The notes beneath the pieces were generated by a model. That model was not told the DNA's origin and made no database searches. It worked only from the letters and a program-made list of their open reading frames with translations. The translations under genes and the position numbers were made by a program. From positions 62,001-126,000 of the forward strand of contig NZ_CP043875.1 of the NCBI RefSeq assembly GCF_032878975.1: 64,000 nt of DNA, in the 5' to 3' direction. Positions 7,865-51,548 of this stretch are shown in pieces; the first letter of the stretch is position 1; each line of letters starts with the position of its first letter. Origin of the DNA: Methanoplanus sp. FWC-SCC4. Lineage in GTDB: Archaea; Halobacteriota; Methanomicrobia; Methanomicrobiales; Methanomicrobiaceae.

Positions 7865-10291
7865 ATGATCTCTGCACTATATGTTGATGACGAGGGGGCA
7901 CTTTTGGAGATCGGAAAGCTGTTCCTTGAAAGGGGAGGTAATTTTTCTGTTGATACCGCTTCCTCTGCAAAGGACGGGATTGAGCTTCTTGGGAAAAATT
8001 CGTATGATGCGGTTATATCTGATTATCAGATGCCTGAAATGGACGGAATTTGCTTTTTAAAGAATGTAAGGGAAAATTTCGGAAACATCCCGTTTATTCT
8101 CTTCACGGGAAGGGGGCGTGAGGAGATTGTAATAGAGGCGCTTAACAACGGTGCCGATTTTTATATCCAGAAGGGGGGCAATCCAAAAGCACAGTTTGCA
8201 GAGCTAAAAAACTGCCTTTCAAAATCCGTAGGAAAAAAGAGAGCGGAAATGGAGGTTTTAAGAAAAGAGGCAGAGCTCTTTGAGGCAGACAAAAAGATAT
8301 CTGTTGCAGAAAAAGTGATGCAGAGCAGTTATCAAAAATTAATTGAAAGTGAAAAGGAGATCCGTGAAACAAATCAGCTGATGACGGATCTTGTAAATTT
8401 TCTACCTGATGCGACATTTGCAATTGACAGGGAAGAAATCGTTATTGCCTGGAATCTTGCTATGGAATCATTTTCAGGGATACCCCCGGAAGAAATTCTC
8501 GGGAAAAAATTATCCGATATTTCACTTCCGTTTTATAGGGATCATCGTCCTCTGCTTGCACAATCCATGCTGAAATCAAAAAATCCTGATGAAGCAGGAT
8601 ATATTTCTGTCTCACGGGAAGGAAACACACTGTTCGCACAGTCAAATATCAGCCTTACAAATAAGCCCGATGCCTATGCAGCTGTTACAGCCTCACTGTT
8701 TTACAACACCAATGGAGAAGTGAAAGGCGCAATTGAGTCTATTCGTGATATTACCGAATACAAACTTGGGGAGAGGTCGATCCGTGAAGCAAACAGAAAG
8801 TTAAGAGAGGCTGAATCAGAGCTTAAACTTCAGATAGAAAATCTGTCGGCAGGAAAAAAAGCTCTTTTGGAGAGTGAAAAGAAGTACAGAGCCCTTTATG
8901 AAAATATGGCGGAAGGCAGTGCTCTGCATGAAATCATTTATGATGATTTTGGAAAACCCGTTGACTATCGTCTTTTGGATGTGAATCCTGCATATGAAAA
9001 AATACTTGGTATTTCGCGTGATTATGCATCAGGAAAATCTGCATGTGAGGTTTACGGGGTTTTAAAACCGCCTTTTTTTGATAAATACCTGAATGTGGCC
9101 TTAACCGGTGAACCCCTGAAAATGAATGTGTTTTACGAGGTGATGAACAGGTATTTTTCAATATCTGCATTTTCTACCGGAAAAAACAGGTTCGTAACAG
9201 TTTTTTCAGATATCACAGATGAGATGAGAACAAAAGAAGCACTTGTACAAAGTGAGGAAAGGTTACGAACACTGATAAATTCAACTCCCGATATCGTCTG
9301 TTTCAAGGATGAAAAAGGCAGGTTGATGATCGCAAACGATGCGTATGTCAGGTTTTTTTCTCTTGAAGGAATTGACTACAGGCTTAACACAAACTCCGAG
9401 CTTTCACTTTTTGCCCATCCTTTGCTTCAGGAGGCTTTGAAAAACTGTGAGATTTCCGACAATGAAGCCTGGAATTTGGGAAGACTCATAATAAATGAAG
9501 AGTCTTTTTTATTGCCGGAAGGGGACAAAAAGATTTTTGAAATGTTAAAGGTTCCCCTGTTTCACGCTGACGGCAGCAGAAAAGGCCTGGTTGTTTTGGG
9601 AAGGGATGTAACATACAGAAAAAATGCTGAAGACAAACTGATACATGCAAACCAGAAACTAAAACTTTTAGGGAGTATCACCCGTCACGATATTGTAAAC
9701 AAAGTGACTGCGATCTTAAGTTATCTTTCATTGATATGTGAAATATCAGAAAATAATAGTACACAGGAATTTACAAAAAAAATAGAATCTCTTGTAGACG
9801 AGATTCATGCCGAGGTTTTGTTTGCGAGGGATTATTCCGTGATTGGCAGTGCGGATCCTGTCTGGCAGAATCTTGAAAATATAATGCCTTTCTCTTCTGT
9901 TCCAAAAACAGTGAGTTTTAATGCAGATGTTTCTGAGGTAGAGATCTATGCGGATATAATGCTGAAAAAAATATTTGCAAACCTTCTTTCAAATTCGGTT
10001 ATGCACGGTGGGGGGGTAACGTCAGTTAATGTTTATCTGAAAAGCAACTTCAATAATCTGACAATTATCTGGGAGGATAACGGCTGCGGGATTCCGGACA
10101 ATATGAAAGAAAAAATCTTTGAACGAAAGGTAGGCAAAAACAATGGTTTTGGGCTGTTCCTGGTGCGTGAGATTCTTTTGCTGACCGGTATTGGTATCTG
10201 TGAAACCGGAACTGAAAATGAGGGTGCAAGATTTGTTATTTTAGTACCGCAGGAATGCTGGAGAAAAATTGAAGGTAGCGATTCTGTTTAA
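7865..10291 (+). CDS. Hybrid sensor histidine kinase with N-terminal receiver and several PAS domains
   Basis: An 808-residue cytoplasmic signalling protein. Order: receiver domain (1-120, Asp53 in ISDYQMPEMDG), coiled coil (125-175), PAS 1 (about 180-300), coiled coil (300-340), PAS 2 (340-445), PAS 3 (450-595), a dimerisation region with HDIVNKVTAILSYL (phospho-acceptor His608) and an ATPase domain with NLLSNSVMHGG (N box), EDNGCGIPD (G1 box) and NGFGLFLVREI (G2 box). There is no membrane segment, so signals must reach it inside the cell. Its receiver is close in sequence to that of the gene at 5987 (SDYQMPEMDG versus SDYEMPEMDG), suggesting duplication. Confidence 0.93.
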   Translation: MISALYVDDEGALLEIGKLFLERGGNFSVDTASSAKDGIELLGKNSYDAVISDYQMPEMDGICFLKNVRENFGNIPFILFTGRGREEIVIEALNNGADFYIQKGGNPKAQFAELKNCLSKSVGKKRAEMEVLRKEAELFEADKKISVAEKVMQSSYQKLIESEKEIRETNQLMTDLVNFLPDATFAIDREEIVIAWNLAMESFSGIPPEEILGKKLSDISLPFYRDHRPLLAQSMLKSKNPDEAGYISVSREGNTLFAQSNISLTNKPDAYAAVTASLFYNTNGEVKGAIESIRDITEYKLGERSIREANRKLREAESELKLQIENLSAGKKALLESEKKYRALYENMAEGSALHEIIYDDFGKPVDYRLLDVNPAYEKILGISRDYASGKSACEVYGVLKPPFFDKYLNVALTGEPLKMNVFYEVMNRYFSISAFSTGKNRFVTVFSDITDEMRTKEALVQSEERLRTLINSTPDIVCFKDEKGRLMIANDAYVRFFSLEGIDYRLNTNSELSLFAHPLLQEALKNCEISDNEAWNLGRLIINEESFLLPEGDKKIFEMLKVPLFHADGSRKGLVVLGRDVTYRKNAEDKLIHANQKLKLLGSITRHDIVNKVTAILSYLSLICEISENNSTQEFTKKIESLVDEIHAEVLFARDYSVIGSADPVWQNLENIMPFSSVPKTVSFNADVSEVEIYADIMLKKIFANLLSNSVMHGGGVTSVNVYLKSNFNNLTIIWEDNGCGIPDNMKEKIFERKVGKNNGFGLFLVREILLLTGIGICETGTENEGARFVILVPQECWRKIEGSDSV

Positions 10292-10385
10292 AAGCAACTA
10301 ATAGATTTTCGCAAAACTCCCCGGCAGTCCGGTAAAAATATTGATTTTTAAAAACAGGATTTTTTAAAATTATAAAATATTGTTT

Positions 10386-13300
10386 TTACTCTTCTTCAGG
10401 GTTGAATCTCTCTTTTTTCTCTTTTCGTGAGGTTTTTTCAAAGACTTCCGCTGCTTCTGTATATTTTCCGAGTTTTGTCAGGCAGATCCCTTTTCTGTAT
10501 GAGGCTGCCGTTTCAGCGCTGTTTATTTCCAGTGCTTTGTCATAAGCTTCTATTGCGGCTTCGTTTTTGCCCACATGTTCAAGTGCAAGTCCTTTTCCAT
10601 ACCATGCGTTTGGATCTTCTGCACCGGATTCGATGGCACGCTCAAATGATTTGCCTGCATCGTTATAATTTCCAAGTGATATGAGCAGCATGCCGCGTGA
10701 ATTCCAGAGGCCCGGGTTATTGTGATCTGCCTTGATTGCTTCTTCATAGCCGGCAAGTGCTTCTTCGAAATGACCTATGCGTTCTGAAGCGTTTGCCTCG
10801 AGAAGCAGTCCGCCTGTGAGTTCGGGTTTTTCGCTGAGGACTTTGGATATGAATTTTATAGCTTTTTCATATCCGCCCATATGCATCTGTGCCACTGCAC
10901 ACTGGAAGAAGCTCTCAATGTCACCTTCTGTGTTTTCAAGAGCCTGACCGTAATGGAAGAGGCCGTCTTTGTATCTGCCGGTGCGCATTAATGATTCGGC
11001 CAGAAGCAGACGTGTTGATTTGTCTTCGGGCTCTTTTTCAACAGTGCTCAGATAGCATTCGGAGGCTTCCTTGAAATCACCTGTTCTTGAATGCGAGTCT
11101 CCCTTCATTCTGAGTGCGGCGGTGTTTTCAGGCTCGACCTCAAGAATGCTGTCGGCCGCTTCCATTGCGTCTTCATACCTGCCCATAAACATCAGGAGCT
11201 TTGTGAGTTTCAGCCATGTGTTGATGTCTTTTGGGTGTTCTTCGAGAATCGCTGCATAATGTCCTGCTGCAAGTTCGAAGCTGCCGGTCTTTTCATAAAT
11301 TCCGGCAAGCTGAAGTCTTGCCGCAGTATCATCCTCATCTGTTGCAAGGAATTTATTGAAGGCCTCGATTGAATCGTTGTATCTGTCGGTTCTTGAAAGT
11401 GAAAATGCAAGTCCGCGTAATGCTGCCGGATTTTCAGGGTCTCTCTCAGTTACTTCTGAGAAGACCTCTGCTGCAGCTTTAAAGTCGCCTGTATGATACA
11501 TCAGAAGAGCGTGATTCAGGAGTATGCCGTTATCATCAGGCATGAACCCTGCCGCTTTGGTAAATGCCTTTGCTGCCTTTTCACAGTTACCTGACTGCCA
11601 CAGTGACATTGCGAGATCCCTCCATCCTTCGGGACTCTCCCTGTTTGCCCTTACAAATGTCTCATAGGCTTTTGATGCCTCCTTGTACCTTCCAAGGAGT
11701 TTCAGGTCGTTTGCAAGCGGCAGGATTATTCCCTGCCTTTCCGGTTCAAGTTCATATGCGTCCGTGTATGCTGATACAGCAGACTGTAGGTCTCCGGTCT
11801 TCTCGAGTATTCCTGCTTTCTGGCATAAGAGCGAGGCGTCCGCAACCCCTGCTGCCTCAAGGTTTTCGATTGCGGATATTGCCTCGTCATACCTTCCAAG
11901 CATTTCAAGGGATGTCAGGTACTTCCTCCACGAATTGACATCGCTGCCGCCTTTTTCGATTAAAGGTTCAAGGGTTTCTATTGCAGCTTCATAGTTTCCG
12001 GTTGAAAGGAGGATGTCCCCTTTATCGGCCTGGGCTGCCTCGTCATCAGAGAGTTCTGATATTTTGTCAATTGTAACAAGTGCCTCGTCAAAGAGCCCGA
12101 GCCGCATCTGTGCTTCAGCACGTTTCTGCCATACGGAGATATTCTGCGGGTCTTCACTCAGGACATGATCAAAGCATTCGGTAGCGCCCGCATGGTCCCC
12201 GAGGTGCATAAGTGCATAGCCTTTCTTCTCCCATGCACTGAGGTCTCCGGGGAATATGTGTATGACCTTTGTGAATGAGTCTGCGGCATCCGCAAATTCT
12301 CCAAGGTGGTAGAGTGCTTCTGAGCGGTATCTCCATGCATTTATATTGTCAGGGTTGATCTCTGTCAGTTTTGAAAAGCATGCAAATGCATCATTGAAGT
12401 TTCCAAGATGAATGAGTGCCTCTCCCTGAAGCTCAAGCATCCTTGTTTCCCTGACATCGATGTTGAGCCTGGCCTCTCTCTCTGTGTTCTGCTTCTCAAA
12501 AAGGCTCAGGTCTATATTATTGTTAATCCAGCTTACTCCTCCGCCAAGTCCGTTTTTGGTAACGTGGCCAAAGCTGTTTAGTGCGTCAGAGTACCTTCCG
12601 AGATTTGAGAGGCAGACCCCCTTTTGGTACCATGTTGCCGGATTGTCGGGTGTGTATCTTAATATATTGTCAAAGCATGCAACGGCTTTCTCGTACTCCC
12701 CAATCTGTACGAGTGACATTCCCATAAGGTGCCATGCCATAATATTTTCAGGATTCCTCTTGACAATCAGTTCAAGGGCATTTGCAGCTTCTGCATATGC
12801 TCCAATCCGTAAAAGGTTTGAGGCACGGTTAAAGGCGGCAGTTGTATCCTCAGGTTTTTCTGCAAAAATACCGGAATAGGTCTCTGCCGCTTCAATGTAT
12901 TTTCCAAGTTTTTCACACACTGCTGCTTTGTGATATAATGCAACATGATCTTTTGGATTTGTTTTTACGGCAATATCATAAAAACCGCGTGCTTCTTCCA
13001 GATTGCCGATTCTTTCCAGAGCCTCTCCGGTAAGGATCATTGCCGAAGTGTTTTCGGGTTCTGCTGTCATGACACGGCTGAAGGCATCAAGTGCAAGGGC
13101 CCATTCCCCGGTCCTCATTGCAAGAATGCCAAGTCTTTCCCGAATTCTGATATTTCCCTGTTCTATTGTGAGAATTTTCACACAGGTATCTGCAGCTGCC
13201 CTGAAATCTCCCAGGTTTTCAAGTGCATCAATTTTTTTGTACCATACATCAATAAGTGAGGAGTCTGCCGAAAGGACTTTCTCAAAACACTGGACTGAAC

Positions 13301-13598
13301 CACTATAGTCTCTTTGGGTGAAGAGTGCATTTCCAAGATCCTGCCATGCCGCAATGTCTTCAGGGTTTGCGGCAACTGCACGTTTAAAAAATCTTTCCGC
13401 ATCGCTGTATCTTGCTGTATACATCAATGCCTTTCCCATCTGGTAACACAGATGTCCGTTTTCAGGCTCAATTTCGAGGGCTTTTTCGAGATCTTTTATT
13501 GCATCTTCGTATCTGCCCTGATCAAAATGGGATGCCGCCTTGTCAATCCACGGGTTTGGATTTTGTCCCTGTCCTATAATTCTGTCAAATATTGCCAT
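10386..13598 (-). CDS. Giant tetratricopeptide-repeat protein
   Basis: 1070 residues built from about thirty 34-residue TPR units from residue 16 almost to the C terminus, each with the usual pattern (W/Y at 4, L/G at 8, Y/F at 11, A at 20 and 27, P at 32), for example AWYGKGLALEHVGKNEAAIE. One unit near residues 345-385 is irregular (NGLGGGVSWINNNID). There is no signal peptide or membrane helix, so it should be a cytoplasmic scaffold. TPR superhelices bind proteins or peptides; the partner is unknown. It stands alone on its strand, between two sensor proteins, and converges on the hybrid kinase. Confidence 0.93.
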   Translation of the reverse strand: MAIFDRIIGQGQNPNPWIDKAASHFDQGRYEDAIKDLEKALEIEPENGHLCYQMGKALMYTARYSDAERFFKRAVAANPEDIAAWQDLGNALFTQRDYSGSVQCFEKVLSADSSLIDVWYKKIDALENLGDFRAAADTCVKILTIEQGNIRIRERLGILAMRTGEWALALDAFSRVMTAEPENTSAMILTGEALERIGNLEEARGFYDIAVKTNPKDHVALYHKAAVCEKLGKYIEAAETYSGIFAEKPEDTTAAFNRASNLLRIGAYAEAANALELIVKRNPENIMAWHLMGMSLVQIGEYEKAVACFDNILRYTPDNPATWYQKGVCLSNLGRYSDALNSFGHVTKNGLGGGVSWINNNIDLSLFEKQNTEREARLNIDVRETRMLELQGEALIHLGNFNDAFACFSKLTEINPDNINAWRYRSEALYHLGEFADAADSFTKVIHIFPGDLSAWEKKGYALMHLGDHAGATECFDHVLSEDPQNISVWQKRAEAQMRLGLFDEALVTIDKISELSDDEAAQADKGDILLSTGNYEAAIETLEPLIEKGGSDVNSWRKYLTSLEMLGRYDEAISAIENLEAAGVADASLLCQKAGILEKTGDLQSAVSAYTDAYELEPERQGIILPLANDLKLLGRYKEASKAYETFVRANRESPEGWRDLAMSLWQSGNCEKAAKAFTKAAGFMPDDNGILLNHALLMYHTGDFKAAAEVFSEVTERDPENPAALRGLAFSLSRTDRYNDSIEAFNKFLATDEDDTAARLQLAGIYEKTGSFELAAGHYAAILEEHPKDINTWLKLTKLLMFMGRYEDAMEAADSILEVEPENTAALRMKGDSHSRTGDFKEASECYLSTVEKEPEDKSTRLLLAESLMRTGRYKDGLFHYGQALENTEGDIESFFQCAVAQMHMGGYEKAIKFISKVLSEKPELTGGLLLEANASERIGHFEEALAGYEEAIKADHNNPGLWNSRGMLLISLGNYNDAGKSFERAIESGAEDPNAWYGKGLALEHVGKNEAAIEAYDKALEINSAETAASYRKGICLTKLGKYTEAAEVFEKTSRKEKKERFNPEEE

Positions 13599-44387: not shown

Positions 44388-44405
44388 GTGATTTAAAATA
44401 ATCTG

Positions 44406-44435
44406 CTAAAAAACAGGGGATATCCCTGTTTTTAG
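44406..44435. terminator. Bidirectional terminator hairpin
   Basis: CTAAAAAACAGGG (44406-44418) and CCCTGTTTTTAG (44424-44435) pair, with A/T runs on both sides of a GC core. It separates the convergent membrane-protein and protease genes and could stop transcription from both sides. Confidence 0.65.
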
Positions 44436-44438
44436 GTA

Positions 44439-47400
44439 TTATAAAAATCTTTTTCTTATGTATATTGCAGTTCCTGCAGATATCAGCACAAATAAGCCTG
44501 GGAGTGGTGATTTTTGTTCTTTTGTTTCTCCTAGGTTTCCGCTCTTCTCTGAATCAGTTCCTGATATATCGTTATTTTGTTGAGATAATTCATCATCCGT
44601 TTCATCGGTTTTTAATGAATCATCATCTGAAATTGTTATTGCAATGTCTGAAAGTGTGTCAGTTGTCGCAGTGAAACAGGCTTTTCCATCTTTAAATTCA
44701 TTAAATACGGTTTCTGCCAAAACCCAGATGTTTTCATTAAGGACATAGAGTTTAACATCCCCGGAGGATGATTTTTGCTCTTCAATCAGGATTTTTGGAA
44801 CAGAGAACTTTATAATTCCATCATTAAGTTTGTCTGTTGTTGTATGATATAATTCGATGTCAACAAATGACAGGAGTTTACCCTCAGGCATGATCAATGA
44901 TGTGGCCGGAATTTTATCTTCTGCTGTAATCATGAGTTCGTTTATGTTTTCTTTTGCCCTGAATGATAATTCGGTAACAGGTGTTTTGCTCATTTTCAGA
45001 GTGAATCTGTCGCCCGATTTTATGCTGTCAGTCATTGCTGCGGAAACATCTGAGATACCTCCACTTCCGGTATGTGATGTCACACCTGTGTTGTCTGTGG
45101 TGCTCTTTGCAACCGCGACAAGTCCGAACTCACAGAAACCTTCAGGTGAAAATCCTTCAAATTTCATGTCGCCGTTCTCGTCAAATCCTGCAAAGGTTGT
45201 TTTAAGGACGCTTAATTCACCTGTGTCGCCGATACGGATGATTTTAACATTTTGTGATCCGCCGACTGAATCCACCCACTCTGCAGGGACGCTGATGAAA
45301 ACACTTGCCTCTTTGATATCTTCGACGTCATTTATTCCATCAAGGTTTACTTCCATTGAACATGCTACATCCTTTAAGGACAGACCTGTCTGTGATGCCG
45401 CGGCAGCGAAGTAATTTCTTGATTTATCGCTCACACTGCTTGTCAGCACTGTTTTGATATTTGCACCTTCAGGAATGTTGTTGAGCTCTGCTTCAATTGA
45501 ACCCGACAGAAGACTGCCGGTTTCTGAATTAATCATTGTCGGATGTGTTTTCAGTTTAATGGATCTGATGTTCCCTTCCATCATCCCATCTTTCTCGGTT
45601 GTGTTCTCTCCGGTTGAAAGGGTAAGGTCGAAAGATTCCCTTCTAAGTGTAACATTCTTTTTATCCTTTGAGACTACTGCACCAGTACCTGTCAGGTTGA
45701 GCTGAATGCGGTTTGTACCGTTATTTTTCTTAATTTTTAGTCCGGGAATATTAATATCAATATTTTTGGATTCTTCTCTTACCGGTTTTAGGACATTTAT
45801 TTCATTTGGAGTTACCGTTGTTGTAATCTGGTCTCCGCCGTCTGCGTCAATCTGAATTATTTCTGTTTCAAAGCCCGTTTTTCCGTCTGAAACAGCTTCA
45901 ACTTTAATTGTTCCGAGAACTATTTCATCAGGTCCTCCCTGGATTTCGGCCTCAAGATCAACTGCTTTTAGAATGAATTTGTCATCTGTTCTGGTATTCT
46001 GATTTAGTGTGGCCCATTTAGGGAATGAAATGTCTTTGATATTTACAACAGAACTGTCAGTTGGTTTTATTGATAATTCATATCCCGAAAGACCCCTTGG
46101 TGATCTGCTCATTACAATATCCAGATTTTTGACCTGGCCTTTTTTGAGTGAAACATTACCTGGCATCAGGGAGATTTCAGGTGATTCATAAATTGTGAAA
46201 GCTTTAAGACAGACATTTGTATCCGGATAATACTTTGTTAAATCGTCCCATTTCTCTCCGTCATCACTTATGAAACTCTCACCTTTGTTTGCCGATGCCA
46301 TTGTTGAATATTTTGCAATAGGGCTTTCGACAGCTATCGGGAGTGTGTAAGCCGGTGTTGTAAGCTTTACAACTACTGAGAATTTTTCTCCGGGAGCCAG
46401 TATTACTGATTTTGCAAGATCCACTGTATGGTAACCCGGAAGTGCGAAACTGCCTTTCAATGTTGAGACAGGTTCTTTATTTGAAAGAGGTCCGTTTTTG
46501 GGGTTATTGTATATGGATACCTCATAATCTGCATCAGGTGACGGAGTATAAAATCCGACGGCTCCGAGTCTGTCTGCGTTTCTTGCTGTGAATACATTTG
46601 CAAAGTATGCTGTTTCTGAATTCAGTCCTATTTCCTTTGTCCATCCAAGCGTGTCATACTGATAGATGTCTGTGTAGTATTCGGTATCCTCTCCGGTAAA
46701 AACAGCCTTGCATCCCCTGTCTGCATCATAATAGGACTGGTAGAAGTACCCGTCATCTCCCCATTCAGGGCCCCATGAATTTCTGACTATGAAAGCTCCG
46801 TCTCCGGGAGGCGTAAATGAGAAATTATCCTTGCTGTAATTATCATCCCATCCGACAATTAAAACCGCATGGCCTCCTCCGATGAGCCAGGGATCGAAAT
46901 AACTGCAGTGTTCACTGTCATAAAAACCATTTGACCAGTACATTGAGGAGTAAACTCCACCATACTCTTTAACAGCCTGCTTTATTTTGGTGACATCTGA
47001 TCTGTCTTTTCTCTTTGGAAGGAATTCAACATTTTGTACATGTTTCTGAACTTTGAGATTTTTAGGTGAAATTGCGGAGTATTCCTGATATGGATCGTCT
47101 TTTTCAAGAACAGGGCCGCTCCATCTGGAGAGATAAGCTGTAGCCATATAGGCATTTCCACCTTCATCGTGCCCGTAATTGTATCCATGTGTATTTTTGA
47201 GATTGTTCTCTGAAAAATCCAGATTTTCACTGGTGAGGAAGAATGATTCGAGTGAACCCATTGCTGCAAAAGCCCAGCATGAACCACAGTCTCCCTGATC
47301 TTTTACAGAACCGACACGGTCTTCCAAACGAAGATCAAAGTAACTCTCTGTTGGTATTTCGTTTGAGATGTCCATTGCGCTTACAGAAATTTCCATCGGC

Positions 47401-47651
47401 CACTGAACTACAACGGGGGAGGGTATTTCTCCTAAAATCTCATTGTGAGGTTCACTCTCGCCGGGCACTGCTGCAAGCATCATTACGGGAGCACCTTTGT
47501 CCTGCTGTTCTTCTTCAAAATATTCTACAAATTCCGGATTTAAGGGGGCTTCTGAAACTTCAAGTGCAAAAGCTCCGGGGATTATAAATCCAAGAAACAT
47601 GCAGGTGAAGAATAATGCACCTGCAATTTTTATGAACTGGTTTGATTTCAT
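44439..47651 (-). CDS. Secreted papain-family (C1A) cysteine protease with lectin-like and cohesin-like domains and C-terminal anchor
   Basis: 1070 residues. A signal peptide (to about 30) is followed by a propeptide-like stretch and the protease domain, with DQGDCGSCWAFAAMGSLES (catalytic Cys125), GGGHAVLIVGWDD (His261) and IVRNSWGPEWGDDGYF (Asn291). Then come a lectin-like beta domain (about 330-480), a cohesin-like domain (about 490-610, opening PGNVSLKKGQVKNLDIVMSR), a long pre-PGF-type region and a C-terminal KSPLPGLFVLISAGTAIY with RKRFL, which resembles a PGF-CTERM-type anchor processed by archaeosortase. The protein is upstream-coupled to the PKD/dockerin gene (33-bp gap), which lies before it on the same strand. 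Confidence 0.9.
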   Translation of the reverse strand: MKSNQFIKIAGALFFTCMFLGFIIPGAFALEVSEAPLNPEFVEYFEEEQQDKGAPVMMLAAVPGESEPHNEILGEIPSPVVVQWPMEISVSAMDISNEIPTESYFDLRLEDRVGSVKDQGDCGSCWAFAAMGSLESFFLTSENLDFSENNLKNTHGYNYGHDEGGNAYMATAYLSRWSGPVLEKDDPYQEYSAISPKNLKVQKHVQNVEFLPKRKDRSDVTKIKQAVKEYGGVYSSMYWSNGFYDSEHCSYFDPWLIGGGHAVLIVGWDDNYSKDNFSFTPPGDGAFIVRNSWGPEWGDDGYFYQSYYDADRGCKAVFTGEDTEYYTDIYQYDTLGWTKEIGLNSETAYFANVFTARNADRLGAVGFYTPSPDADYEVSIYNNPKNGPLSNKEPVSTLKGSFALPGYHTVDLAKSVILAPGEKFSVVVKLTTPAYTLPIAVESPIAKYSTMASANKGESFISDDGEKWDDLTKYYPDTNVCLKAFTIYESPEISLMPGNVSLKKGQVKNLDIVMSRSPRGLSGYELSIKPTDSSVVNIKDISFPKWATLNQNTRTDDKFILKAVDLEAEIQGGPDEIVLGTIKVEAVSDGKTGFETEIIQIDADGGDQITTTVTPNEINVLKPVREESKNIDINIPGLKIKKNNGTNRIQLNLTGTGAVVSKDKKNVTLRRESFDLTLSTGENTTEKDGMMEGNIRSIKLKTHPTMINSETGSLLSGSIEAELNNIPEGANIKTVLTSSVSDKSRNYFAAAASQTGLSLKDVACSMEVNLDGINDVEDIKEASVFISVPAEWVDSVGGSQNVKIIRIGDTGELSVLKTTFAGFDENGDMKFEGFSPEGFCEFGLVAVAKSTTDNTGVTSHTGSGGISDVSAAMTDSIKSGDRFTLKMSKTPVTELSFRAKENINELMITAEDKIPATSLIMPEGKLLSFVDIELYHTTTDKLNDGIIKFSVPKILIEEQKSSSGDVKLYVLNENIWVLAETVFNEFKDGKACFTATTDTLSDIAITISDDDSLKTDETDDELSQQNNDISGTDSEKSGNLGETKEQKSPLPGLFVLISAGTAIYIRKRFL

Positions 47652-47684
47652 ATGTTTCTACCTTTTTATGACAAATTTCCCTTT

Positions 47685-50600
47685 TTAGCAATCCCTGTAC
47701 ATGACAACAATATCGTCAAAGTCGGTTCTTCCGTTACCGTTGTAGTCAAATACGCTCTTTGTCTCCTGTTTCGTGAAATCCCCTATATTTGTGAAATATA
47801 TGGAAATATCGTCAGTGTTGAGAATTCCGTCACCGTTTAAGTCTTCATACAGACCGTCTGCGTCAGGGTCGGAAGGAATTCTTAAAAAGCCTTCAAAAGG
47901 ACTCACTGAAATGATTTCAAGTGACTTTGGATTTTGAATGATCTCTGTCTCCTTTCCGGAATCGTCGTGAATAATACTTTTTGAAATTGAAACGTCGGTG
48001 CTTCCTGACGAAAGTCCTTTGATGGTTAATTCTGCCAGAATAACATTTTCACATCCTGCTTCGAGAATGCTCTTTGTATCTTTTGCCTTAATTATGGCCG
48101 ATGCTCCCGGAATTCCCTCTGAACTTACTGTTACAATATCGTCAGGCAGTGAAAATCCGGTAATTTCTGCTTTGTCTGAGTCTGAAAGTAAAATTGTTAA
48201 TTCATAGTCTGATATTCCCTGTGGCAGATGATCAGCAATAATTGTCAGTTTATTCTCTGCTCCTGCTGCTGTCAGGGGTTTTTCTGTGAAATAGTAAACT
48301 TCAGGTGCAACATCGGCAATTCTTATATTGTCTATCCATCCGCAGTCTTCACCTGATGTGCTGTATGCATTCTTCTGGTATGTCCAGCGGAGGGTGTGTT
48401 TTCCACTTTCAATTTCAAATTCCTCATCTTTCCAGGAATTATCAGTGCCTGCAATCTCTTTTTTGGTCTCTCCATCAATGGAAAAGGTAAGCCTGTCAGA
48501 ACTGCTCATTGAATATCCGGATTTTGAGGAGACATTCCATGCAAAAGTGACCTTTTTAGGGCCTGTGACTGTGGTTTCAATCCATGATTTTTCGTAGCGT
48601 TTTTTTAGTTCACCGCTTTTTGCACAGCTCTGGTTGACATAATTGTCATTTGTTTCAACAAACCAGTCTGAGTTCCCGCCTGTCACCCACGTATGTTCTG
48701 TGGTTTCAAGTGCATCTTCAAAGGTAGGTGTGACCGTAATGAATGCCGGCTTTGTTTTAACCTCGTCAGTGCCGTCTTTTTTAATAATCAGTGTTACATT
48801 GTAGGTTCCCGGTTTGTCATAGGTATGTGTCTGTGTTCTTCCGACAGCCGATTCCTTGTCTCCAAAGTCCCATGCCCATAACGAAACATTTCCTGTGGAG
48901 TATCCTGTGAAGTTGACCTGAAGCGGAACCTGTCCGAATACGGTGTCGGCTTTCAGATCGGTTTTTTGGGTTTTAACATATGTTACGTTGTCAATCCAGC
49001 CTGAGTCACGACCCATGTCACGACCGCTGTCTTTTTTGTATTTCCACATGAGCTCATGTTCTTCAAAATCTATTGCAACGGATTTATGCTCCCATTCCTC
49101 TGTTGTGCCGGAGATTTTGTCAGTCTCCTCTCCGTCTATGAGGAAAATTAAATAATCAGAATTTGGCTCAGAGGATGCCATCCAGGAGAAGTCAAGAATA
49201 CCCGGACCTGTAACTGATGTTTTGATCCATGATTCCTGTGATGCAGCTGTTTCTCCGCTTTTAACCGATGCATTGTTGCATACATACGTGTCAATATCAA
49301 CATCGAAAGGTGAAATGCCTCCTGTTGTCCATTCAATGCTGGTGTCTGTTGTGTCAGCTGCATCTGAAATGTTCATAAAAGGAAGTATTACTATCTCCTT
49401 TGAAATGTGGTCTTCTCCTGCATCATTTGTTACAGCAAGGGTAGTTGTGTATGTTCCCGGTTTTTCAAAATTATGCATCATATTTTGATTATTGTACAAT
49501 GTCGGACTGTCTCCGAAATTCCAGTTCCAGGCTGTCGGGCATCCGGATGATGTGTCATTGAACCGGATCGATGCAGGGGCCATTGCCCTTGTTGCATTTG
49601 AAATGAAATCAGCAACCGGATTTATTGCTCCAAAAGTGAAGGTAACATTGTCAATATGACCACAGTGTCCTTCTTCAAAGACGTAATCATTTGTATATAT
49701 CCATCTGACTGTGTTTTCCCCGGGCGGAATTTCATAATATTCCGTGTGCCAGTCTTCCCAGTTTTGTTTGCCTTTTATTGACTTTTGGGAGACGTTGTTC
49801 AGGAGAAATTCCAGCTGGCCGTCATAGGTGTAACTCGTTGAGTTTATGTTCCAGTCAAATGTCAGAACACCCGGGCCTGTCATTGTGCCCTGAATCCATG
49901 ATTCTTCATCGGCTGAAGATATCAGTCCGTTTCTTGCGGATGTTTCTCCTTTGCCTGATACATAAAGGTCTGTGAACCATTCCGCATCCCCGCCTGTTGT
50001 CCATTCAACATCCGGTGCGTCAACCGCATCTTTGAGTGGTATTGGTTCAAGGACGGTCACTGTTTTTGAAACGGTTGCCTGACCTGTAACCAGGTTGCCT
50101 GATTCGTCTTTTTCGGCAATGTTTGTAATGGACAGTTTCACTGTGTATGTGCCGGGCTTTTCATAAATGTGAACAGGATTTTCCTTATTGGAGTGTTCTG
50201 ACAAATCACCAAAGTCCCAGTCCCATGTTGTCGGGAAACCGTTTGAGGTGTCTTCAAACTCAACAGAAAGGGGTGCAAAACCACGATTCTCTGTGACATT
50301 TGTTTCAAAATCAGCAACAGGCTCTCCGCCTCCAAAATTGAATGTGACGTTATCAAGCCATCCTCCGTTTGTTTCTTTGTCGGATGTTTTGGTTGAATAT
50401 GTCCAGTTTAATTCATGCACACCGTTTGGAATATTGAATGTCTCATGGTGCCAGCCCTTAAACCTGATTTTTTTGTATTTGTCAGTTTCATACTGGTCTG
50501 CATTGTCTATGGAAAATTCAAGTTGTCCCATGGGCATTCCCATGACAGTACCGGGTTCTGCATTCCAGTCAAACGTAGCTGTTCCGGGTCCTGTAACTGA

Positions 50601-51548
50601 TGTACTAATCCATGAAATTTCTCCGGATTTTAAAACTCCTCCGCTTCTTGCACAGCTGTTGTTTACGTAAATATCAGAGATTTCATATGACCAGAGGCTG
50701 TTTCCGCCTGTTTTCCATTCAAGGCCGTGTGCATCAACTGCATCTTTTAGCTCAATTCCTTTCATTACATCAATATAGTCGGTTTTTGTAACGGTCTCGG
50801 ATTCTCCGTTTCTTGTTACCGTGAGAGAAACCGTGTATTTCCCCGGATTATTGTAAGTATGTTCGGGGTTTTGGTCAGGTGATTTGTCTCCGTCTCCAAA
50901 ATCCCACTCCCTTGAGGTGATGTCGCCTGTACTCTCGTCAGTGAATCTGACTGTCAGTGGGGATTCCCCGCATACTTTGTCTGCTGAAAATTCGGTTGCA
51001 ATTCCCTGGATATATGAAACATTATCGACCCAGCCTGTGCTTAATCCGTCAGATTCGTCACCATTCCAGCTCATTTTGTAGTATTCCCACATGAGTGTGT
51101 GCTCTCCGGCGGGAACATCAAATGTTTCGGATGACCAGGTTTCTTCAAGGCCGCAGATCCCTTTTTGCTTGTTTTTGTCAATGTAAAAAGAGAGTTCATC
51201 GTTCATCTCATCGCAGGACACATTCCAGTCAAATGAAATTTTTCCCGGACCTTTTACGATTGTTTTAAGCTCGGATGATCCCATGTCCCAGGAATCATAT
51301 GAGAATGAGCCGCTTTTTGCAGAACTATTCCCTCTTATAAAGAGTTCAGTATCGATTGTCCATCCCAGATCTCCGGCACATGTCCAGGCGAGATCGTTGT
51401 TATCCAGTGCGTCACCCAGTGGACTATCTGCCGATACAGGTACTATTATAGTACAGATCATCAGCAGAATGAGAAATATGGGTGATGCCGGATTTCTCTT
51501 AATGCACTCTGTAATAACTCTCATAGCAAAATCATCTTTTGAATACAT
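47685..51548 (-). CDS. Secreted PKD-repeat protein with cohesin-like and dockerin modules
   Basis: 1287 residues with a signal peptide (to about 40). Five beta-sandwich units of about 120 residues (each with a WTTGG-type opening, a GPG...FxWN core and an xGWIDNVxY end) alternate with four PKD domains (WDFGDGDKSPDQNPEHTYNN; WDWDFGDLSEHS; WNWNFGDSPTLYN; WAWDFGDKESAVG). After the fifth unit comes a cohesin-like domain (about 1080-1220, YELTILLSDSDKAEITGFSL) and at the C terminus two dockerin-type Ca-binding repeats, DLNGDGILNTDDISIYF and DYNGNGRTDFDDIVVMY. It is the first gene of the pair with the C1A protease. Role: cell-surface or secreted scaffold. Confidence 0.9.
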   Translation of the reverse strand: MYSKDDFAMRVITECIKRNPASPIFLILLMICTIIVPVSADSPLGDALDNNDLAWTCAGDLGWTIDTELFIRGNSSAKSGSFSYDSWDMGSSELKTIVKGPGKISFDWNVSCDEMNDELSFYIDKNKQKGICGLEETWSSETFDVPAGEHTLMWEYYKMSWNGDESDGLSTGWVDNVSYIQGIATEFSADKVCGESPLTVRFTDESTGDITSREWDFGDGDKSPDQNPEHTYNNPGKYTVSLTVTRNGESETVTKTDYIDVMKGIELKDAVDAHGLEWKTGGNSLWSYEISDIYVNNSCARSGGVLKSGEISWISTSVTGPGTATFDWNAEPGTVMGMPMGQLEFSIDNADQYETDKYKKIRFKGWHHETFNIPNGVHELNWTYSTKTSDKETNGGWLDNVTFNFGGGEPVADFETNVTENRGFAPLSVEFEDTSNGFPTTWDWDFGDLSEHSNKENPVHIYEKPGTYTVKLSITNIAEKDESGNLVTGQATVSKTVTVLEPIPLKDAVDAPDVEWTTGGDAEWFTDLYVSGKGETSARNGLISSADEESWIQGTMTGPGVLTFDWNINSTSYTYDGQLEFLLNNVSQKSIKGKQNWEDWHTEYYEIPPGENTVRWIYTNDYVFEEGHCGHIDNVTFTFGAINPVADFISNATRAMAPASIRFNDTSSGCPTAWNWNFGDSPTLYNNQNMMHNFEKPGTYTTTLAVTNDAGEDHISKEIVILPFMNISDAADTTDTSIEWTTGGISPFDVDIDTYVCNNASVKSGETAASQESWIKTSVTGPGILDFSWMASSEPNSDYLIFLIDGEETDKISGTTEEWEHKSVAIDFEEHELMWKYKKDSGRDMGRDSGWIDNVTYVKTQKTDLKADTVFGQVPLQVNFTGYSTGNVSLWAWDFGDKESAVGRTQTHTYDKPGTYNVTLIIKKDGTDEVKTKPAFITVTPTFEDALETTEHTWVTGGNSDWFVETNDNYVNQSCAKSGELKKRYEKSWIETTVTGPKKVTFAWNVSSKSGYSMSSSDRLTFSIDGETKKEIAGTDNSWKDEEFEIESGKHTLRWTYQKNAYSTSGEDCGWIDNIRIADVAPEVYYFTEKPLTAAGAENKLTIIADHLPQGISDYELTILLSDSDKAEITGFSLPDDIVTVSSEGIPGASAIIKAKDTKSILEAGCENVILAELTIKGLSSGSTDVSISKSIIHDDSGKETEIIQNPKSLEIISVSPFEGFLRIPSDPDADGLYEDLNGDGILNTDDISIYFTNIGDFTKQETKSVFDYNGNGRTDFDDIVVMYRDC

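Follow-up and report, generated by a model that had tools for sequence, protein, structure and literature searches.

A cohesin-dockerin gene pair in Methanoplanus sp. FWC-SCC4 as a candidate surface module with a C1A protease as the anchored partner

Two co-directional open reading frames (ORFs) occupy positions 44439-51548 of the window, the 64,000-nucleotide stretch of the Methanoplanus sp. FWC-SCC4 genome (a single contig of 2.31 Mb) analysed here, and the borders of this region coincide exactly with theirs. Both lie on the minus strand, separated by 33 bp, with the gene for a 1287-aa repeat protein (47685-51548) upstream and the gene for a 1070-aa C1A cysteine protease (44439-47651) downstream. 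The upstream neighbours on the same strand are what we take, from reading their sequences, to be a phenylalanyl-tRNA synthetase-like pair, and the downstream neighbour is a convergent ORF for a membrane protein. A hairpin accompanied by a T-run lies 3′ of the protease stop and is a candidate terminator. With these neighbours, and with the hairpin and T-run behind the protease gene, the two genes resemble a self-contained unit, which would be co-transcribed. The features of the upstream gene and its product are as follows.

47685..51548, minus strand: secreted repeat protein, 1287 aa (sequence, domain matches)
51429..51548, minus strand: N-terminal hydrophobic signal region, approximately residues 1-40 (mean hydropathy 2.4)
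51006..51419, minus strand: beta unit 1, no curated family (sequence comparison)
50763..51005, minus strand: PKD domain 1 (domain match)
50337..50753, minus strand: beta unit 2 (sequence comparison)
50055..50327, minus strand: PKD domain 2, approximate limits (domain match)
49629..50036, minus strand: beta unit 3 (sequence comparison)
49383..49625, minus strand: PKD domain 3, approximate limits (domain match)
48975..49370, minus strand: beta unit 4 (sequence comparison)
48723..48965, minus strand: PKD domain 4, approximate limits (domain match)
48309..48719, minus strand: beta unit 5 (sequence comparison)
47910..48299, minus strand: cohesin domain B, in cis to the dockerin, approximately residues 1084-1213
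47691..47900, minus strand: dockerin module, residues 1217-1286
47841..47870, minus strand: extra acidic loop DPDADGLYED just before the dockerin (archaeal family alignment)
47793..47843, minus strand: dockerin F-hand repeat 1, DLNGDGILNTDDISIYF, residues 1236-1252 (sequence, family alignment)
47697..47747, minus strand: dockerin F-hand repeat 2, DYNGNGRTDFDDIVVMY, residues 1268-1284 (sequence, family alignment)

The repeat protein thus reads signal peptide, beta1-PKD-beta2-PKD-beta3-PKD-beta4-PKD-beta5-cohesin-dockerin, and a domain library search found no recognised enzyme domain in it. A first-pass annotation of this DNA had placed the five beta units and four PKD domains on the protease; they lie instead on the dockerin protein. 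The five beta units are related to one another and matched neither curated families nor solved structures, so any role given to them is a guess.

The two dockerin repeats that the same annotation had read at the end of this protein are present letter for letter, and the C-terminal module is, on its sequence, a two-F-hand dockerin. Both F-hands are complete, with acidic residues or Asn at positions 1, 3, 5, 9, and 12, and their calcium loops, DLNGDGILNTDD and DYNGNGRTDFDD, have the D, N/D, and G positions; the dockerin would depend on calcium. An alignment of 21 dockerin sequences has D11, D20, D31, D52, and D63 invariant, and the acidic loop before the dockerin is kept in the archaeal family with the consensus DPDGDGLYED. 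Pfam Dockerin_1 (PF00404) matches residues 1234-1282 with an E value of 0.019, below the cut-off (21.2 bits in the genome search, against a curated 22.9). The same model matches 34 of 39 dockerin homologues, with a best E value of 2.9e-8, and two homologues, L123 and L078, exceed its cut-off at 29.1 and 27.5 bits. Matches of the family profile in the PDB include dockerin structures.

The downstream gene has the following features.

44439..47651, minus strand: C1A cysteine protease, predicted at the cell surface, 1070 aa; also carries a lectin-like domain, a cohesin, PGF-pre-PGF, and a C-terminal anchor
47565..47651, minus strand: signal peptide, approximately residues 1-29 (hydropathy 2.2)
46737..47354, minus strand: C1A papain-like catalytic domain with Gln119, Cys125, His261, and Asn291
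46194..46667, minus strand: lectin-like domain PF18560, as in Cwp84
45786..46184, minus strand: cohesin domain A, proposed dockerin receptor, approximately residues 490-622
44634..45023, minus strand: PGF-pre-PGF domain (TIGR04213, 49.3 bits, cut-off 28)
44442..44507, minus strand: C-terminal anchor segment PLPGLFVLISAGTAIYIRKRFL (sequence; archaeosortase A homologues in genome)
44405..44435, minus strand: terminator-like hairpin AAAAACAGGG..CCCTGTTTTTT, directly 3′ of the protease stop (sequence)

The protease scores above the cut-off against both PF00112 (100.3 bits) and PF18560 (187.5 bits), the latter domain being the one lectin-like copy in the genome, and the predicted catalytic Gln/Cys/His/Asn set is intact. 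Among solved structures, it is closest to Cwp84 (E 1e-32). Cwp84-type proteases (4ci7, 4d59) share with it the C1A and lectin-like domains and the catalytic residues, but Cwp84 carries cell-wall-binding repeats, whereas the protease here has a cohesin, a PGF-pre-PGF domain, and a C-terminal anchor segment. An anchor at the C-terminus had been proposed from the first reading, and a short membrane segment is indeed seen there together with the PGF-pre-PGF domain. The motif of this segment reads PGL rather than PGF, and none of the PGF-CTERM models matched the protease C-terminus, though the PGF-pre-PGF domain is above its cut-off; the genome encodes three archaeosortase A homologues.

Domains A and B are homologous to each other, with 27% identity (E 9e-7) and an alignment score of 118 against 33 +/- 6 for shuffled sequences. 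Pfam Cohesin (PF00963) gave no significant match to either, as was also the case for NCBIfam and other library models, and it matched 9 of 80 relatives weakly; a profile of the 80 relatives searched against the PDB had two cohesins as its sole matches, with E values of 0.27 and 0.39. Sequence searches in Pfam, NCBIfam, and the PDB could by themselves neither confirm nor exclude a cohesin, and it was the fold that decided. AlphaFold models were built as single chains with alignments of related loci, and reached a pLDDT of 95.7 and a pTM of 0.87 for cohesin A, and 94.0 and 0.84 for cohesin B together with the dockerin. In Foldseek searches, the best 50 PDB matches of cohesin A were all cohesins or cohesin-containing structures (E 1.7e-9 to 2e-5), the best 50 of the cohesin B and dockerin model likewise, and the matches include several cohesins solved together with their dockerin. 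The Archaeoglobus fulgidus cohesin 2xdh is match 4 of cohesin A, at an identity of only ∼11-12%. As modelled, both domains have the cohesin beta-sandwich fold, so that the cohesin-like domains first suspected in the two proteins have no different fold. The pTM of 0.84 suggests that cohesin B and the dockerin pack in a fixed arrangement, compatible either with an X-module-like support or with a cis complex.

The genome holds two family cohesins, A and B, one per protein, and a single dockerin, on the repeat protein; a search for further dockerin-bearing proteins returned none. With two family cohesins and one dockerin, the system is a dedicated pair and not a recruiting scaffold. An assembly of the cellulosome type had been suggested, and of this idea the cohesin and dockerin modules and the protease as anchored partner stand, with the genes forming a conserved unit, while the composition does not. 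A single dockerin protein and the absence of a multi-cohesin scaffoldin from the genome led us to discard the cellulosome. Clostridial cellulosomes share the cohesin fold and the two-F-hand dockerin, but they differ from the pair described here, which lacks both a scaffoldin with several cohesins and a suite of dockerin-bearing enzymes, and in neither protein of which a cellulase or cellulose-binding domain was recognised.

The same two genes occur in the same order in four genomes of one related genus (L034-L037), in Methanogenium cariaci (L038, whose assembly is fragmented and has interrupted reading frames), and in two Methanofollis-labelled contigs (L046, L047). At the readable loci they overlap by 4 b or lie 17-18 b apart, and the genes flanking them differ from those in the window. 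Over seven loci, the identity matrix of one protein tracks that of the other with an r of 0.99, as expected if the sequences were co-inherited, although ancestry is not factored in and the correlation is statistically weak because the window is an outlier to a tight cluster. C1A-lectin-like proteases as a class are present in 33 of 60 relatives. Among those surveyed for architecture (loci L124 and L126-L154), PGF-pre-PGF is combined with a cohesin placed immediately behind the lectin-like domain in L137, L140, L145, L147, and L148, in addition to the window, and each of these five has a cohesin-dockerin gene directly upstream (fragmented in L137). Two other surveyed proteases have a cohesin further along, and most have no cohesin.

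A scan of genome contigs with the whole repeat protein as query found nothing. The cohesin-dockerin alignment, run against 84,980 genomes, yielded 78 loci from a best-80 list, distributed over haloarchaea, Methanomicrobiales, Methanococcoides, Archaeoglobaceae, Methanophagales, Thermoproteaceae, and two bacterial candidate phyla. Within these loci, cohesin and dockerin share an ORF in 81 cases. Of the 76 [X]-cohesin-dockerin genes for which the next gene could be assessed, 51 have a cohesin-only gene behind them within 600 b on the same strand (median gap 38 b). A C-terminal membrane segment is present in 40 of 58 complete cohesin-only proteins versus 0 of 91 dockerin proteins (Fisher p 1e-22), a zero that is partly positional because the dockerin itself occupies the C-terminus, and over 60 genomes cohesin and dockerin co-occur in 18, appear singly in 4 and 2, and are both absent from 36 (p 1e-9); as the counts come from related genomes and the best-80 list, these p-values overstate independence. 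Anywhere beyond residue 90, a membrane-like segment was seen in only 2 of 110 dockerin proteins. Four genomes have family cohesins without a recognised dockerin, and G004, G023, L157/L158, G032, and L155, when checked, remained exceptions of this kind.

Domain content adds to this picture. The three haloarchaeal dockerin proteins scanned (L052, L075, and L081; ∼880-950 aa) are PhoX-type phosphatases. Ten longer proteins, mostly cohesin-only partners, have PEGA, PKD, NosD, and similar domains, and no catalytic domain was evident in these ten. Taken with the gene pairing and the anchor counts, the partner domains indicate that the usual logic of the family appears to be an exported dockerin cargo and an anchored cohesin, of which the window is a variant with a protease as the anchor. 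The gene-pair pattern and the phosphatase cargo in haloarchaea suggest a common way in which archaea retain exported proteins on the cell.

Archaeal cohesins and dockerins, also in methanogens and ANME, are already known, as are C1A-lectin-like proteases. Verified binding between archaeal cohesin and dockerin is reported in PMC9012536, and in E. coli the A. fulgidus modules serve as a surface display clip (PMC9705933). ANME genomes encode cohesin/dockerin proteins in many copies, for which surface assembly has been proposed (PMC9012536, PMC5244752). These proteins share an archaeal origin and a proposed surface assembly with the pair described here, but include scaffoldin-like proteins with up to five cohesins, whereas the set in the window is minimal, with one dockerin and two cohesins. 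The haloarchaeal and methanogen pairs of an [X]-cohesin-dockerin protein and an anchored cohesin share the gene order, the cohesin and dockerin families, and a cohesin-only partner that often has a C-terminal membrane segment. In those pairs, however, any enzyme recognised is carried by the dockerin protein (a PhoX-type phosphatase in the haloarchaea examined) and the partner is small or carries PEGA/PKD repeats, whereas here the anchored protein is the enzyme.

The non-cellulosomal system of A. fulgidus, also archaeal, non-cellulolytic, and built on the cohesin fold, is said, after Voronov-Goldman in 2011, to comprise two cohesins and one dockerin, with both cohesins binding; the system described here differs in that its separate cohesin is part of a C1A protease with a lectin-like domain and is only remotely similar in sequence to 2xdh. 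A protease in the role of anchored cohesin partner looks new. This arrangement, the minimal two-gene repertoire, and the counted pattern of pairs and anchors were not found in the literature searched, which contains few subscription papers, and priority is uncertain. The function of cohesins and dockerins outside the cellulosome is described as not known (PMC5244752), and in archaea these modules, although familiar for decades, have no well-defined physiological role. A genome whose only dockerin and two cohesins lie in neighbouring genes, with one cohesin on an enzyme whose catalytic residues are intact, offers a minimal test case for what the archaeal clip holds.

The computed domains, folds, gene pairing, and the presence of an anchor segment on one protein and its absence from the other are best explained by a two-gene surface module. 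It is probable, in our judgement, that the dockerin of the repeat protein binds cohesin A of the anchored protease with calcium and so fixes the repeat protein to the surface, and we favour this trans docking over other arrangements. The protease would be exported and retained in the envelope through its C-terminal segment, displaying cohesin A, and the repeat protein would be co-expressed and exported without an anchor of its own, ending in the calcium-binding dockerin. Docking would then place the repeat protein on the cell surface, close to the active site of the protease. The beta and PKD repeats probably give reach or substrate contact, the lectin-like domain probably gives extra surface or glycan contact, and cohesin B may be a support module or an additional site for chain growth.

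Carrying its own cohesin B, the repeat protein leaves room for cis binding or self-assembly. It is possible, if somewhat unlikely, that the dockerin binds mainly cohesin B, of the same chain or of the next copy, giving a closed unit or a head-to-tail fibre for which cohesin A would be a cap or anchor at most. The 81 ORFs that hold both modules make cis pairing the more constant arrangement in the family, the modelled packing of cohesin B and dockerin is compatible with a fixed arrangement, and cis cohesins retain conserved positions of their own; a pure cis lock, however, leaves the adjoining cohesin-only gene of the 51 paired cases unexplained, and several positions of the trans cohesins are more tightly conserved at paired loci. 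A comparison of cis and trans cohesins at 42 non-redundant paired loci found differences at specific columns and slightly higher overall conservation in trans, and a leave-relatives-out profile separates the two with an AUC of 0.93. The profile was not taken as support because it gives the opposite sign for cohesin A of the window, which scores cis-like (-30), with 5 of 6 protease-cohesin orthologues trans-like; the window copy is thus atypical, and this inconsistency lowered our confidence in trans docking. If both A. fulgidus cohesins bind, both cohesins here may do so too, and docking on cohesin A and on cohesin B would merge into one explanation. An unlikely further reading is that a cohesin-dockerin gene with an anchored cohesin gene behind it forms a general archaeal clip that keeps secreted proteins at the surface, rebuilt in this methanogen lineage so that the protease is the anchor and the repeat protein, with its own cohesin, chains head to tail into a surface fibre ending on it.

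The intact catalytic residues, the co-inheritance of the two genes as neighbours, and the relationship to Cwp84, which processes an S-layer precursor at the cell surface (PMC4089489), would also suit a docking of substrate, in which the dockerin delivers the repeat protein or its cargo for maturation or shedding as Cwp84 does with that precursor. This is very unlikely, since there is no known cleavage site and most sampled C1A-lectin-like proteases of relatives have neither a cohesin nor a dockerin, so that docking is dispensable for the enzyme class. Least probable of all, in our estimate, is that the cohesin folds are merely structural or glycan-contact beta-sandwiches and that the dockerin binds something else or nothing: the very weak sequence similarity to known cohesins (E 0.27 in the PDB, 9 of 80 in Pfam) would allow it, but the fold matches are overwhelmingly cohesins, and cohesin and dockerin genes co-occur and adjoin as pairs. 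By analogy with the action of Cwp84 on its S-layer precursor, the protease that would hold the repeat protein through cohesin A could reasonably serve to process the envelope or to degrade proteins close by.

The five repeats that alternate with the PKD domains in the 1287-aa secreted protein occupy one stretch of the window:

48309-51419, beta units 1-5, each roughly 135 aa long and sharing W, G and D residues at invariant positions

These units matched no Pfam family or PDB sequence and are possibly an uncurated jelly-roll domain.

The operon of this protein and the adjacent C1A protease is also present in two contigs labelled Methanofollis (L046 and L047), whose proteases are up to 93% identical to that of L037, a locus from a genome of genus g11, a likeness for which mis-binning or recent transfer are possible explanations. 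Bacterial-labelled contigs, too, carry the archaeal-type cohesin-dockerin module, namely L116 and L117, which are Fraserbacteria and Acetothermia MAGs, and L102.

Cohesin-dockerin proteins of ~880-950 aa are found in haloarchaea (L050, L052, L054, L062, L063, and others), often adjoined by a small cohesin protein that has a membrane segment at its C-terminus. All three haloarchaeal cohesin-dockerin proteins scanned (L052, L075, L081) are PhoX-type phosphatases, and together with the small membrane-segment cohesin they are a candidate surface phosphatase clip.

Genomes G004 and G023 each encode a 462-aa protein with two family cohesins (L157 and L158, respectively), and neither genome contains a recognised dockerin. 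In a relative, G054, locus L042 encodes at 10036-12285 a protein of 749 aa that combines three cohesins with two PKD domains, adjoining two cohesin-dockerin proteins and one more cohesin gene, and this gene group is a scaffoldin-like archaeal cluster.

Elsewhere in the window, an ORF at 10386-13598 consists almost entirely of TPR repeats; its length of 1070 aa, equal to that of the C1A protease, is a coincidence.
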